Part shown: piece after piece, positions 41,298 through 56,850 of the stretch
Position numbering within the stretch: the first letter of the stretch is position 1
Layout of the letters: every line of letters begins with the position of its first letter
Origin: Gloeopeniophorella convolvens
Taxonomy: Eukaryota > Basidiomycota > Agaricomycetes > Russulales
DNA length: 64,000 nt
Direction of reading: 5' to 3'
NCBI GenBank assembly: GCA_022496205.1
Contig: WTXD01000078.1
Coordinates: forward strand, 1-64,000
Notes under the pieces: generated by a model
What the model saw: the letters and a program-made list of their open reading frames with translations, nothing else
Told to the model about the DNA's origin: nothing
Databases searched by the model: none
Translations under genes and position numbers: made by a program

Positions 41298-42861
41298 TTA
41301 CAGAATAAACCGTTTATCCACGTATGAGGCACGCAAATCGAACACAATCTCGTTGCTCTCCTCGACGACGGATGTCCCCGTATACTCCGTCGGAAGGTCG
41401 CGCTCCGAACTGATTCGTTGTCGAAGGTTGATCATCATGCGTGAGACGAGTGTCGAACACAGAACACTCGTCAGCACGCTGCTGACACCCTTGAGTACCG
41501 GCTGCGTGGATTGTTAGCGCAGGAGGCGTCGAAGGAAAGCATACTGACCGGAGCGAACTGACAGGTTTCATGAGTATGATATGCGGAGGCGGAAGGGATA
41601 TGTAACTCACTAGGCACGTCAGAATGTTGAATAAGTTGGCAAGGAACATGGTGCTGAGAATATGTCAGAGCGGCTTCTGTCAGGATAACCCCATCCGGTA
41701 CTCACGCGAAGTATAGGGAGCCTGTGCAGGGCATAATCGAATGAGAGTAGGAGGGACTGAGATAGAAAGCCGACAGACCATCGCGCAGCAAGACATAGAT
41801 TATTGTCATTGGCTGCCGCCAGCCAACGCGCAGCGCTTTGTACAGCGTGAGAACGAAGACGGCGAAGTCCAATACGAGCACGATGCCCCACGCTAGGGCG
41901 ATGCCTGCAGAAAGCGACAATCAGCGCGCATACATGCGGACAATCGCACGTTCGTACGCTGGCCACTGACGTCGTCCATGGCGTTAGTGCGAATCCGCCC
42001 GAAAAATGAGATAAGTTGACTTGCTAGGACGTGCTGCTCTCTACGTTGCACCCCGACACGGGGAGATCGACGAGTATGAGGCTATCCTTTGAGGAAGAAT
42101 GCAAGAAAAGGAACGTCTAGGGAGCTCGTCGTGAATTTGATGTACCTTCTGGAGATGATTGCCAGACTCACGGCTACGAAGGCGCCACCACCAAGGGTAA
42201 GGACGAGGAAGGATATGATGATCGTCCGGTTGTTCTCGTATATCGCCGCTATGCGCATGATGCAAATGACTGTGGTGCGTTGAGCGCAGGAGCGAACAGC
42301 CCACGAGGGTAGGAGCATACCTGCAACTATGAATTGGAGAAGTGCATAAAACGCTAGGTGATATAGCAAGAAGGCATGACATCTACGTGTTGATTCAGTG
42401 CATGGTCAACATGGCGAGGTATGTGGCAGGGGACGCACAACTGATTAGGGCAGAACCGGCCGACGTGTTATCATCAGGGTCCTGGTCCGATGCAGAGCTA
42501 ATTTGCACTCACACCATCGTTGAGATGCGATGGCTCGGCAAACATCTCGAGGGCTACTGGTATGTGTCCTAAGATTGAGAGATATCTGTTGATGAGGAAG
42601 AGAGCTGACGGCCAGGTCAGGCGACGTTTCACGGGCCAGAAAAGTTCGATTTCGGCTGATAGGGTGATGATGTAGTCGTAGTATAGGATAGCTGAACAAA
42701 AATCAAGTCCAGAAGCTTGCGGCAGACAGGAAACGCACAGAAGGAAATCAGCCGAGGGTAATAGCTTGCGAGTCTATCATTCAGCACAGGTTAGGACAGA
42801 TCATTAACACGCCGGGACGGAATGCATCGTACATTTGGTTGCCCACGTCGTGAAAAAGCAT
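41298..42861 (-). CDS. DUF6533 seven-helix membrane protein, copy 1
   Basis: Polytopic membrane protein of the basidiomycete DUF6533 family, function unknown. Exons: 42833-42861, 42739-42773, 42513-42691, 42439-42440, 42321-42382, 42166-42269, 42031-42086, 41958-41965, 41779-41904, 41707-41722, 41611-41653, 41549-41557, 41298-41501; 290 residues, all phases closing. Signature: ILYYDYIITLSAEIELFW, INRYLSILGHIP, CHAFLLYHLAFY, MRIAAIYENNR, ALAWGIVLVLDFAVFVLTLY, VLLRDG and LVSRMMINLR. Exon lengths 35, 2, 62, 104, 8, 126, 16, 43 and 9 recur in the three other copies. Exon 7 is shorter (56 nt) and its donor (GTCCTA) is weak. The first exon is tentative. It is on the opposite strand from the other three copies. 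Confidence 0.82.
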
Positions 42862-50268: not shown

Positions 50269-51777
50269 ATGGTCTCGATCGAAGCGCTCAAAGCTCAGGT
50301 GTACGTCGAATTCACGCCATTTTCTCTTGCTCTGCGCTTATCCTTGGATTTGTGCAGGAACCTTAATTACTATTCAATCATGGTATCGATAGGTTGGTCG
50401 TAAAATAACAACGCGGCGTCTTGCTCTGCAACTTGCATCCCAACAGTGATCCTTTACTACGACTGGCTCGTCACGTTGATCGACGAGATCAATTTCTTCT
50501 GGCCGCCAAAGAATCGCATAACGTTGGCGTCTTCCTTATACTTCGCAAACCGCTATCTGTCACTCTTTGGTAATATCCCGGTCTTTTATGAGGTCTTTTT
50601 AGGTTCTGTGGGCGACAAAGTATGTTCCACTGCCCTTCGCTATAACACCATACTCACATAAGGTTACAGGTGTATGTCCACTCCGACGCGCCGCCTGCTG
50701 AAGCAACCCAACTAAAATCTCACAGATGCGAACTCTTGCAGCACTATCACCAGTACTTTCTGGGAGTCACGCAAACACTCGTTGCAGGTACGTCTAGATG
50801 ATAATTATCACATATTGCACTAATTTAGTGTCTGCTATAGCTCTCTGCTGTATGCGTGTCGCCGCTCTGTATGAAGGCAAGCAACGGCGTGCTGTGGTTG
50901 GGGTTCTCGTGTTGATTATCTTGGGTTGCATTGGTGCCTCTTGTGTATGCAGTTATCTTCTATGCGTGTGTGCGATATTGACTTTGGGCAGTGGAGCTTC
51001 GTTGTTCCCCGGCCCGACCACGCAACCGTCTTCCTTGAAGTCGAAGGGACGCGTGGTTGCAGGCCGCTTCACACCGAGTCCCAGTGCGTTACCCCAGCTT
51101 CCATTGTATGGAGCGGTGGCTGACATTTTCTTCCAGGGGATATCGTTAGTTTTATCTTCACCCGCGCACGCCAATACGAGTGCTGAGATATCGGATACAG
51201 GGCTCGCGGTGACATGGAGCGTCATGCTCATGTTTGACACGACCGTGTTCGTTCTGACGTTGTACAAGGCTCTACGGATTGGCTGGGGCCGTCCTGTGAC
51301 CCTCTTTCGAGTCTTACTCCGCGACGGTGCGCACTACCTGTGATCCTGGCTCATGCGGTGTATTGACTGAGCGTGTGTCTCCAGGAACACTGTACTATGT
51401 GTACGACAGCATTTACTATTTATACTTGGACAAAACGAAGCTGATCAGAATGTAGGGTGATATGCATATCAAATTTGGCAAATATCATCACTTTCCTCGT
51501 AAGCATTCTCAGCCGTCCGCTGATCTATCTGTTTAATCTGCTGATTTCAACTTTGATAGGTTGCACCAGTAAGTGAACAACACTTGTTGTTTGCTCACGA
51601 TGTTCCAGTTGACTCATTTGTATGCCGCCCTAGCCCTTGCTCAAAGGCTTGACCAGCCTTTTGACCAACGTGCTATGCGCTACGCTTGTATCACGCCTCG
51701 CTCTGAACTTGCGAACCGAGAATAGCACACTCAACGATGATCGCATACGGGCTGCCTGCAAGTCATTGGAATCCTGA
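50269..51777 (+). CDS. DUF6533 seven-helix membrane protein, copy 2
   Basis: Second paralogue, first of three in a head-to-tail array. Exons: 50269-50300, 50358-50392, 50447-50619, 50670-50671, 50726-50787, 50841-50944, 50992-51083, 51137-51144, 51201-51326, 51385-51400, 51456-51498, 51560-51568, 51634-51777; 281 residues. Conserved segments: VNLNYYSIM, VILYYDWLVTLIDEINFFW, FANRYLSLFGNIP, CELLQHYHQYFLGVTQTLVA, CMRVAALYEGKQRR, GTRGCRPLHTE, TTVFVLTLYKALRIGWGRP, VLLRDG and LVSRLALNLR. The 2-nt exon 4 (GT) supplies two bases of a Val codon before the conserved Cys; its flanking introns are 50 and 54 nt. Exon 8 is 8 nt, exon 12 9 nt (VAP). Seven hydrophobic stretches are visible. Function unknown; a GPCR-like topology is only a resemblance. 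Confidence 0.87.
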
Positions 51778-52896: not shown

Positions 52897-54425
52897 ATGA
52901 TGAAGCCACACGAACACGGAGTAGAGTGGCCTCCCAAGATAGCCCCCACTAATGTCTCCGCGCTCTTGTGAGTATCTGTAACATATCATTCCTAGCAAGA
53001 CAAGACCCTGAAGTGGTTCAGGGACGTGAATCATTATCTGGCTCTCGCGTCTTTTGGTACGTGCGGATAGAGACTGTTGCACAATTTGTGGTCCTCATTC
53101 ACCGCCCGTCTCCAGTGATCTTATACTACGATTATCTCCTCACGTTACCCAGAGAGATCGAATACCTTTGGCCACCAAGACACAGAGTCACCTTCGCTTC
53201 ATCTCTCTACTTCTTGAACCGCTACATGGCAATTTTTGGACACATGCCCGTCGCGTACGAGATCTTCGCCGCTTCCCCAAGCCACCAGGTAGATATTTTA
53301 TCATCGTACGATCCTGGAATTAAGATACTCACCTTCGCGTCCTAGACGTGAGATTTATTATCAGATCGTCTCAACAGAGCCACTGACAGCGATACCAGGT
53401 GCCGCTCGTTGCAGAGGTTCAATGAGTACTACGTTGCTGTCAGCCAACTCTTCGCTGCAGGTACGCGGATTATCATCTGCAACCCGGAAAAAAGACCAAC
53501 TGTAGCGCAGTCATATGCCTGTTACGTGTCTCGGCGCTCTACAACAGTAAATCCCGCCGAAGCGTCGTCATATTCCTCTCAACTATCATCGTGGCCACTG
53601 TCACCATCGCTTGCGTGTGTAATTTCGACTATCATTCACAAGGCCAAGTTATTCACCATACGCGTCTCCAGTGGGCAACCATTGTACCACACCCCCACGA
53701 CAGGCATATCTTCTTGCATCACGGAGCCGGTGGATGTAACCCCCTGTACAAGGAAAAGGAGTACGTTAGTCTTACTAATAATACATCTCACCACCCGAAC
53801 GACCCTACAGAGCACGACGTGAGCCCTAGCCCATCCATGAGACAGCGGAGTACCTGATACTACTTAGGCATGGCGCTGGCGTGGAGTGGGGTACTTGTAT
53901 ACGACGTAGCAGTCTTCGGACTGACCGTCTACAAAGCGATGAATGTAGGGTGGAGGCGGCCCCAAACGTTGTTTGGCGTGATGCTCCGTGATGGTACGTG
54001 TTCGTCTGGCGAAAAAGTCGATAGTATCTTTACTAACGTTCGCGGCATCACAGGAGCGCTTTATTTTGTGTAGGTCCCACTGAGGCCTGCAGTTGAAGAG
54101 ACCTGACTGCGGAAACACAGCGTGTTGTTCTTCGCCAACCTCGCAAATGCCGTCACGTTTCTAGTACGTACCTCGCGAACTGCGTGCCGAACATCTGCTT
54201 AGTAGACGCATCCCCGTAGACAGCGCCGGTGAGCCTTTTCCGTCTCCTGCGCGATCCTTTTTTAATATCGGTCATTGCCGGCAGCCACTCCTCAAGGGCA
54301 TCTCTGGAATACTCCTGAACGTGTTGTCGCCAATACTTGTGTCCCGGCTGGTTCTCAATTTGCGACACCGCGCACTTGGCGGGTCCGCTCGCGGGAGAGC
54401 AGGTAGACTCTTCGACTCTGGGTAA
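52897..54425 (+). CDS. DUF6533 seven-helix membrane protein, copy 3
   Basis: Third paralogue. Exons: 52897-52967, 53025-53059, 53116-53288, 53346-53347, 53399-53460, 53511-53614, 53672-53760, 53811-53818, 53868-53993, 54054-54069, 54121-54163, 54220-54228, 54285-54425; about 292 residues. Conserved segments: DVNHYLALASF, VILYYDYLLTLPREIEYLW, LNRYMAIFGHMP, CRSLQRFNEYYVAVSQLFAA, LRVSALYNSKSRR, GAGGCNPLYKEKE, GVLVYDVAVFGLTVYKAM, VMLRDG and LVSRLVLNLR. The 2-nt exon 4 (AC) completes a Thr codon. At the position where copies 2 and 4 start (ATG, 32-nt exon 1) this copy has AAG (52936), so the start moves upstream to an in-frame ATG pair at 52897/52900 and adds about 13 residues. Exon 2 therefore begins at 53025, by the GGTTCAG acceptor. 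Confidence 0.84.
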
Positions 54426-55324: not shown

Positions 55325-56850
55325 ATGTCCGGTTTGAGTCACCTCGGAACGCAATTGTAAGTCTCGTCATTGCTAACCCACCACCTGACCGTGCTCATCA
55401 AATTGCATGTAGAAACCTTAATTATTACATTTCCCTCGCTTCATTCAGTGCGTCAGCACATCCTTTTCGTCTCTCCTCGAGATATACGGGCTTACGCCTC
55501 TGATAGTTGTTTTGTACTACGATTTCCTCTTGACCTTGGGTGCCGAGGTCGAGCATTTCTGGGGCAGTGGACATCGTATCCGGTGGCCGTCTCTTCTTTT
55601 CTTCTTCAGCCGTTACCTTGCTCTGTTTGGACACACCCCTCTTCTCTTCGCGTTCTTCGCCGAGTCGTTGAGTGATAAAGTACGTATTCAGTCGATCTTT
55701 GCCACCTTGCCACCACCCTAACAGGCATCCTTGATCTTGCTCCGCAGCAGTGAGCCTAGGCCGCTGGTGGTCGTACTTTCCCACACTGACCCAACCCCAT
55801 TGTTGAAGATGCGCTGCTCTAGGAAAATACGATCAGTACTACACGACAGTTCTACAGCTGATTATAGCCGGTGCGGTCCATCACATGATACCTTCTTTCT
55901 CACAGGATTCATACCCGATACATGATCGTAGCTTTATGCATCATCCGTGTCTCCGCTTTGTACAGCCAAGGTCACCGACGCGTCGTGATTCTGTCACTGC
56001 TGCTCATCGTGCTGGTGTGGCTCGGGATTGCCTTCGTATGTCCTCCCCCTGCTGGTAATGGACCGAAATTGCGTGTTCCCTTGCTTATTTCCGTCCCAAA
56101 GGCGTTCTTTGTTTTCGTCCAGAAGAACTTCCACATACGACGTCTGCGTGGTGTACGCGGATGCAACCCGGAATATTCTCACTCTGAGTACGTCTCGGTT
56201 TTGCTAGGATCCTCACATCGTATTGAACGCGCACAGGGGCCTCTGTGAGTAGCCTCCGCCGTATGCGTGACAGACGTTGACCTAGCATCGAACCGCACCA
56301 GGGATCGCATTTGCATGGCTGGGCGTGCTCACATTGGATATCTCCGTCTTCGCGCTCACGCTGCGCAAAACTCTGGGTGTTGGGATGGAGAACCCGTCTT
56401 CGCTATTTAGAGTTCTGCTTCATGATGGCACGCAGTTTTCCAAGTGCAATGCTGCGCCTTGCTGACCAGCGGACGCGCCGCCTCCAGGTGCATTGTATTT
56501 CAGGTAAGCACCCTCGTATTTCCGACAATCCAGAAAACTCGCTAAGCAGTCTATCAACAGCGTTTTGTTCGTCATCAACCTATCGAATATATTGGCGTAT
56601 CTGGTGAGTAGTTGTGGCGTTCGTTGCGTGTATGCATATATACTCACGGGTTGTAGTTCGCTCCCGTATGTTTCGCACCTGGTGTCTTGGGTCAAGCCAA
56701 CTTTCTGACCCTCCAGCGATCCCACAGCCGCTGCTCAAAAGCGTCGTAGGAATGCCCACGAACGTCCTATCATCGACTCTGATGTCGCGCCTCATGCTGA
56801 ACCTGCGCATCCAGTACGGGGTCCATGTCCACGAAGGCGTACACACTTGA
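55325..56850 (+). CDS. DUF6533 seven-helix membrane protein, copy 4
   Basis: Fourth paralogue. Exons: 55325-55356, 55413-55447, 55507-55679, 55748-55749, 55809-55870, 55932-56035, 56123-56187, 56237-56244, 56302-56427, 56488-56503, 56561-56603, 56657-56665, 56728-56850; 265 residues. Conserved segments: LNLNYYISLASF, IVLYYDFLLTLGAEVEHFW, FSRYLALFGHTP, CAALGKYDQYYTTVLQLIIA, IIRVSALYSQGHRR, GVRGCNPEYSHSE, DISVFALTLRKTLGVG, VLLHDG and LMSRLMLNLR. The 2-nt exon 4 (CA) completes a Gln codon. The intron after exon 9 starts GC (GCACGC) rather than GT, while exon length (126 nt) is preserved. Exon 7's acceptor is ambiguous (56122 or about 56101). The acceptor before exon 5 (TTGAAG) is weak. Confidence 0.84.

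Follow-up and report, generated by a model that had tools for sequence, protein, structure and literature searches.

The window, that is, the whole stretch of 64,000 nucleotides of Gloeopeniophorella convolvens contig WTXD01000078.1 that was analysed, carries four genes, W1 to W4, each of which exceeds the curated cut-off of the DUF6533 (PF20151) profile. The initial annotation had placed an exon of only two nucleotides between exon 3 and exon 5 of each gene. When the letters of all four genes were re-read, the positions given for this exon proved exact, as did the lengths of the flanking introns (72/56, 50/54, 57/51 and 68/59 nt in W1, W2, W3 and W4, respectively). In W1, on the minus strand, exon 3 (42513..42692, counted like those of W3 and W4 from where the conserved stretch found by the profile match begins) is followed by a 72-nt intron 1 (42441..42512), the 2-nt exon TT encoding Leu (42439..42440), a 56-nt intron 2 (42383..42438) and exon 5 (42321..42382). 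The other three genes are on the plus strand. In W2 the DUF6533 region of exon 3, with its phase-0 end, covers 50446..50619, where 50446 is a codon start and the exon proper begins at 50447. Intron 1 (50620..50669, 50 nt, GTATGT...CAG) ends at an acceptor that, by hand reading, is also used in the deposited protein P0004; then come the 2-nt exon GT (50670..50671), which supplies positions 1 and 2 of a Val codon, and intron 2 (50672..50725, 54 nt, GTATGT...CAG), which is open in frame and is read through in P0004. In exon 5 (50726..50787) a single base precedes the conserved Cys codon. W3 consists, over the same region, of exon 3 (53115..53288), a 57-nt intron 1 with the weakly scoring donor GTAGAT (53289..53345), the exon AC for Thr (53346..53347), a 51-nt intron 2 (53348..53398) and exon 5 (53399..53460); and W4 of exon 3 (55503..55679), a 68-nt intron 1 (55680..55747), the exon CA for Gln (55748..55749), a 59-nt intron 2 (55750..55808) and exon 5 (55809..55870). 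All four 2-nt exons were recovered by the scan described below as well as from the letters. As had also been claimed, exon 3 ends in phase 0 and exon 5 starts one base 5' of the Cys codon in all four genes, and fusing the two without the intervening bases leads to loss of the frame in each of them.

We then looked at the whole genome, where 58 matches to the DUF6533 profile were found, three of them (C212:349323, C212:352305 and C1:869340) outside the regions fetched. The genes scored, 44 in number, are the four window genes together with those of the 51 fetched regions in which exon 5 could be defined. As the exon-5 profile made from four peptides was too weak for most paralogues, exon 5 was chosen by an N-TGY rule and by eye among the candidates, and in L020 and L039 through a sequence string. 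Left out were L018, whose likeness to its near-copy L019 ends ahead of exon 5, L032 (a copy of L031), L054 (a copy of L053, at a contig end), and eight genes with another exon layout (L047, L048, L049, L050, L052, L055, L057 and L059). For each gene the pattern AG-N(k)-GT was scored for k = 0 to 15, the donor being sought 38 to 94 bases 5' of exon 5. The splice-site weights used in scoring were not trained, and the AG-NN-GT pattern had been noticed by eye before the scan was designed. The best exon length was k = 2 in 41 of the 44 genes, the remaining three giving k = 0, k = 5 and k = 11; 40 genes scored at least 10 at k = 2, and at most two did so at any other k. When the sequences were shuffled with their dinucleotides preserved (500 shuffles per gene), the fraction for k = 2 was at most 0.028 in the 41 genes and at most 0.008 in W1 to W4. 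Since there are near-copies in the set, L011 and L012 for example, the 44 genes are not independent. The pattern first noted in four paralogues thus held up, and it reaches well beyond those four.

The three exceptions differ from each other. L014 has TT at the expected place, flanked by weak sites. In L029 the acceptor AG is absent and k = 0 and k = 2 are tied at a score of 3.6; compared by hand with L038, the AG of the 2-nt exon appears as AT, and the gene is possibly broken. In L039 the exon appears to be of 5 nt (AACAT), a change in length by three that keeps the frame, and the conserved Cys is replaced by Asp. A shift of the same size was seen in L020, whose exon 5 seems to start three bases earlier than in the near-copy L023, the AG being changed there and the frame kept. 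In L057, which lies on the same contig as its relatives L049 and L052, reading by eye gave no canonical 2-nt exon. One scan each of a viral and a prokaryotic contig collection confirmed no DUF6533 relative, and conservation of the arrangement in other species is therefore judged through protein junctions only.

Looking at the introns on either side, intron 2 measured 46–69 nt in the 41 genes and intron 1 49–85 nt in 25 genes, the longest being that of L044, which is probably mis-modelled. Donor 2 had a mean score of 7.24 (n = 41) and donor 1 of 6.91 (n = 25, with L044 included). Close to the acceptor, 18 of the 41 first introns and 20 of the 41 second ones had the motif CTRAY, about six being expected from mononucleotide shuffles, and none of 500 shuffles reached either count; the same was true of CTNAY (30 and 25 of 41, 0/500 shuffles each). 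TRAC was enriched in the first intron (22/41, 0/500 shuffles), whereas its enrichment in the second was not clear (16/41, a count reached by 43 of 500 shuffles). Both predicted flanks of the 2-nt exon are of ordinary length, have good splice sites and are enriched in branch-point-like motifs.

Some of the genes with another layout showed what becomes of the site when an intron is lacking. In our hand model, L049 (contig C79) has a single intron of 58 nt, and its upstream exon ends in phase 2 with GG. Its relative L052, about 4.6 kb away on the opposite strand, was modelled by hand with TC as its 2-nt exon and with flanking introns of 55 and 54 nt. The two proteins align without a gap, NRYLVPLSFCVNLWAYFREGWPPQ-G-CKHFVRFEGSMTMIGI in L049 versus NRYLIPLSFIVNLWAYFRTTWTPE-S-CKHFVRYEGSMTMIGI in L052. 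In L047, L048 and L050, also modelled by hand, one exon spans the position and there is no intron there. Taken together, these four models indicate that relatives without one or both introns bear coding bases at the site. In a tree of 49 rows and 72 usable columns, of whose 46 inner branches 15 stayed open and in which the exceptions L014, L029 and L039 nevertheless bore the two-intron label, L049 joined L052 weakly (85/4) and the three genes without introns at the site grouped together.

We next compared the junction with that of 161 homologous proteins. As the DUF6533 genes are intron-rich here and most of the 25 proteins from jgi or lgn sources have about 300 residues on contigs of 1.1–2.6 kb (992 to 4265 bases for the whole group), cDNA is their likeliest source, and we took these 25 as cDNA-like. 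The exon-5 Cys was aligned in 21 of them and in 78 of the 136 other proteins; the remaining 58 include true Cys-lacking genes (a Lactarius group) and distant relatives, and not only broken models. The residue before the Cys was F in nine of the 21 cDNA-like proteins, L in four, I, M and S in two each, and T and V in one each. Among the 78 deposited proteins it was S (16), V (16), R (15), L (9), F (6) or another residue, a contrast that is only suggestive because the two sets differ in species. The distance from the NRY motif to the Cys was 24 residues in 11 and 25 residues in two of 13 hand-picked Russulaceae-type cDNA-like proteins; counted by hand with the 2-nt exon spliced in, it was 24 in L028 and L035 and 25 in L045. 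This length differs among subfamilies.

Pairs of close homologues gave a similar picture. The cDNA-like P0097 reads NLP-L-C where the deposited Lactarius protein P0101 reads NLP-LLNFALQQL-C (96.6% identity over 293 residues). A single L in P0133 faces VRP in the deposited Russula protein P0045 (92.9% over 182), and a single I faces LYVTAL in the pair P0104 and P0046 (89.6% over 231) and MYVAAF in the pair P0085 and P0118 (83.5% over 345), the cDNA-like protein being named first in each case. P0023 retains exon 5 and the Postia protein P0073 (66%) is without it. There were also counter-cases, in which a deposited model shows a single residue at the junction: P0120 agrees fully with the cDNA-like P0080 (84%), both having F, and P0092 has V where P0097 (94.0% identical) has L. 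This V would arise from the use of a donor two bases later at a GT-GT sequence, as in P0086 below. Seven deposited proteins from several Agaricomycete genera (P0001, P0008, P0011, P0028, P0038, P0042 and P0073) seem to be without most or all of exon 5, a loss that is expected if predictors skip exon 5 when the 2-nt exon is not modelled.

The initial annotation had expected gene finders to miss the exon, and the deposited proteins of G. convolvens bear this out: by hand reading, none of the four junctions (W2, W3, L024 and L045) contained in three such proteins uses it. P0004, which is BC834DRAFT_974497, is 93% identical over 83% of our spliced W2 model in a profile search. At W2 its junction takes the AG at 50669 as acceptor, and the 54 nt of intron 2 are retained in full, which would leave the frame of W2 intact since that intron is open; at W3 a later donor is used. 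In P0086 (L024) the chosen donor lies two bases further 3', and P0122 (L045) has an exon of 17 nt that begins at the same AG as the 2-nt exon. These junctions are differing workarounds for the same missing two bases. We also observed that P0004 merges the separate neighbours W2 and W3 into one model of 517 residues, from 50269 to about 54330.

These models show how the frame could be kept by other means. A single longer intron from exon 3 to exon 5, its boundary shifted gene by gene so as to restore the frame as in some deposited models, would need an upstream donor in phase 2. The later donor of P0004 in W3 and the donor two bases downstream in L024 (P0086) are of this kind, and among the 24 genes that share the window's exon layout, two had their top-scoring donor in phase 2 (W3, 5.6 versus 4.0 for phase 0, and L043, 7.9 versus 7.6). 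In the 22 other genes, however, the best donor was in phase 0. The mean best scores for phases 0, 1 and 2 were 6.84, 1.49 and 0.50, the last being background, and in eight of the 24 genes (L010, L015, L017, L030, L031, L036, W1 and W2) the best phase-2 site was not a GT. This scripted test covers the window's layout; in the other layout, which has an additional exon before the 2-nt exon, donors were read by eye. Shifted boundaries would moreover leave unexplained both the AG-NN-GT pattern of 41 of the 44 genes and the pair L049/L052, and we consider them very unlikely.

If intron 1 were instead spliced to the same AG and intron 2 kept wholly or in part, a longer exon would result, as in P0004, which retains the 54 nt in W2, and in P0122 with its 17-nt exon in L045. 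The solution then varies from gene to gene, and such retention leaves little place for a donor 2 that is strong in 41 genes (mean 7.24), for the branch-point-like motifs of intron 2 and for the mostly single residue at the junction of the cDNA-like homologues. Retention of intron 2 may occur as a minor isoform; as the general arrangement it is extremely unlikely. The near adjacency of AG and GT also recalls ratchet points, and stwintrons, that is, nested intron pairs, have been reported from several fungi, so that the site might be a stwintron or a recursive splice site that leaves no base in the mRNA. Against this, the frame breaks without the two bases in all four window genes and L049 retains a codon at the site with spacing equal to that of L052. 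As for a ratchet point, k = 0 was best in one of the 44 genes only (L029, score 3.6, without the AG) and the introns are short. We give this last possibility practically no weight.

The 41 of 44 paralogues, the donor phases, the paralogue with fused exons and equal spacing, and the one-residue junctions in probable cDNA-derived homologues all support a 2-nt exon. On this evidence from sequences we hold it to be highly probable that nearly all scorable DUF6533 genes of this genome possess a real, constitutive 2-nt coding exon between a phase-0 and a phase-2 intron, and that these introns leave successively. Each flanking intron would be recognised separately, by intron definition, since recognition across introns this short should suffice. 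With two bases between them, the 3' and 5' splice sites would probably not be bound at once, and the two introns would thus be excised in succession. The two bases, the first two of the codon preceding the conserved Cys, would then complete that codon at the start of helix 3. Skipping of the exon would shift the frame ahead of helix 3, i.e. before five of the seven helices, and the remainder of the protein would be read in the wrong frame.

The positions of the helices come from the AlphaFold model of the homologue P0081 (mean pLDDT 80.5), which has seven long helices, two of them broken. The conserved Cys, residue 86, is at the start of helix 3 of seven, and a second conserved Cys, residue 161, is between helices 4 and 5, a placement that we take to resemble the helix-3 disulfide of GPCRs. 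Among the 50 Foldseek matches listed for this model, 45 were GPCRs and five were microbial rhodopsins, all of them weak (best E 0.017, TM about 0.3 to 0.5). The DUF6533 protein SNB1 of Coprinopsis, which is required for fruiting-body patterning, has been characterised as a seven-helix membrane protein outside the GPCR classes (PMC10949477).

As for the residue encoded through the 2-nt exon, it is predicted to be Y in 12 of the 41 genes, F in nine, L in nine, S in six, V in two, and H, T and Q in one each; that of L041 is unsure, as the site found by the scan (TA, Tyr) may not match that of its relative L022 (CT, Leu). The initial annotation had proposed that the exon's sequence drifts while its length is kept. 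The residue does differ among the window genes (L, V, T and Q), but we found no free drift, and the residues of the window are untypical of the 41 genes. Judged across these predicted exons, it is the length that is under selection, and the sequence is loosely held, giving mostly an aromatic or aliphatic codon.

Exons of this kind are already known, at 1 nt, from plants and Fusarium. The 1-nt exon of Arabidopsis APC11 is described as constitutive, lying between AG and GT and missed by annotation, and its authors favour intron definition and successive intron removal (PMC4674806); APC11 and VPS55 1-nt exons occur across plants (PMC8831610). When the APC11 exon was changed to TT, wrong splicing was seen in rice protoplasts (PMC4674806), which shows that not every context tolerates a 2-nt exon. 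The 1-nt exon of Fusarium CYP621A has been termed the first in a fungal gene, and the same source states that exons of 2 to 5 bp occur in Arabidopsis, Drosophila and human (PMC12940212). With exons of the APC11 or CYP621A type the DUF6533 exon shares its AG and GT flanks with ordinary introns, the need for the frame, and an intron-lacking relative that has the bases within a larger exon. In the plant genes, too, the base itself can be changed without an effect on splicing and intronless relatives carry it (PMC4674806, PMC8831610); there, however, the exon is of 1 nt and is found in one or few genes per genome, whereas here it is of 2 nt, between introns of about 46 to 82 nt, in dozens of paralogues. 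The likeness to CYP621A extends to the fungal host, the frame argument, an intronless family member and deposited models that are wrong at the junction (PMC12940212). As described there, though, the CYP621A exon is a single base, identical in all genes, in orthologues of one genus and backed by SRA reads, while the DUF6533 exon has two bases of variable sequence in a diverse family and is predicted from sequence. The P450 genes of the basidiomycete Phanerochaete chrysosporium, likewise form a family in which introns are short and exons can be tiny; the shortest of their microexons is given as 6 bp, compared with 2 nt here (PMC1184071). Stwintrons of fungi resemble the DUF6533 arrangement, as far as the accounts of them go, in that adjacent splice signals are used successively, but a stwintron leaves no exon and the DUF6533 genes keep two bases. 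Searches of an open-access library, judged mostly by title, brought up nothing on a 2-nt exon in DUF6533 or mushroom-fungus genes, and the family-wide scale, with about 40 paralogues in one genome, appears to be new.

One genome thus offers about 40 natural variants of an exon close to the minimum size, in which the length is fixed and the sequence, the introns and the strength of the splice sites vary. Because the length is fixed and the context varies, the use and order of splice sites two bases apart become testable. The results also suggest that, within a large receptor-like family, the deposited models often break ahead of helix 3, and gene finders that bar such exons would need changing. 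Beyond this genome, we lean slightly towards the view that the expanded DUF6533 seven-helix family of Agaricomycetes inherited the 2-nt exon from its ancestor and that hundreds to thousands of genes throughout the class splice it constitutively. No other exon of 1–3 nt would then be in such wide use, and many public models would be wrong at this point.

Other very short exons were noticed further downstream in the window genes. Exons of 8 nt appear in W2 (GGGATATC, 51137-51144), W3 (AGCACGAC, 53811-53818) and W4 (GGGCCTCT, 56237-56244), and the deposited P0004 sequence fits those of W2 and W3. Exons of 9 nt encoding x-Ala-Pro appear at 51560-51568 in W2, 54220-54228 in W3 and 56657-56665 in W4, and a similar one was spotted by eye in W1; P0004 fits the 9-nt exon of W2 and continues past that of W3. 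Together with the 2-nt exon, these genes thus seem to bear exons of 2, 8 and 9 nt.
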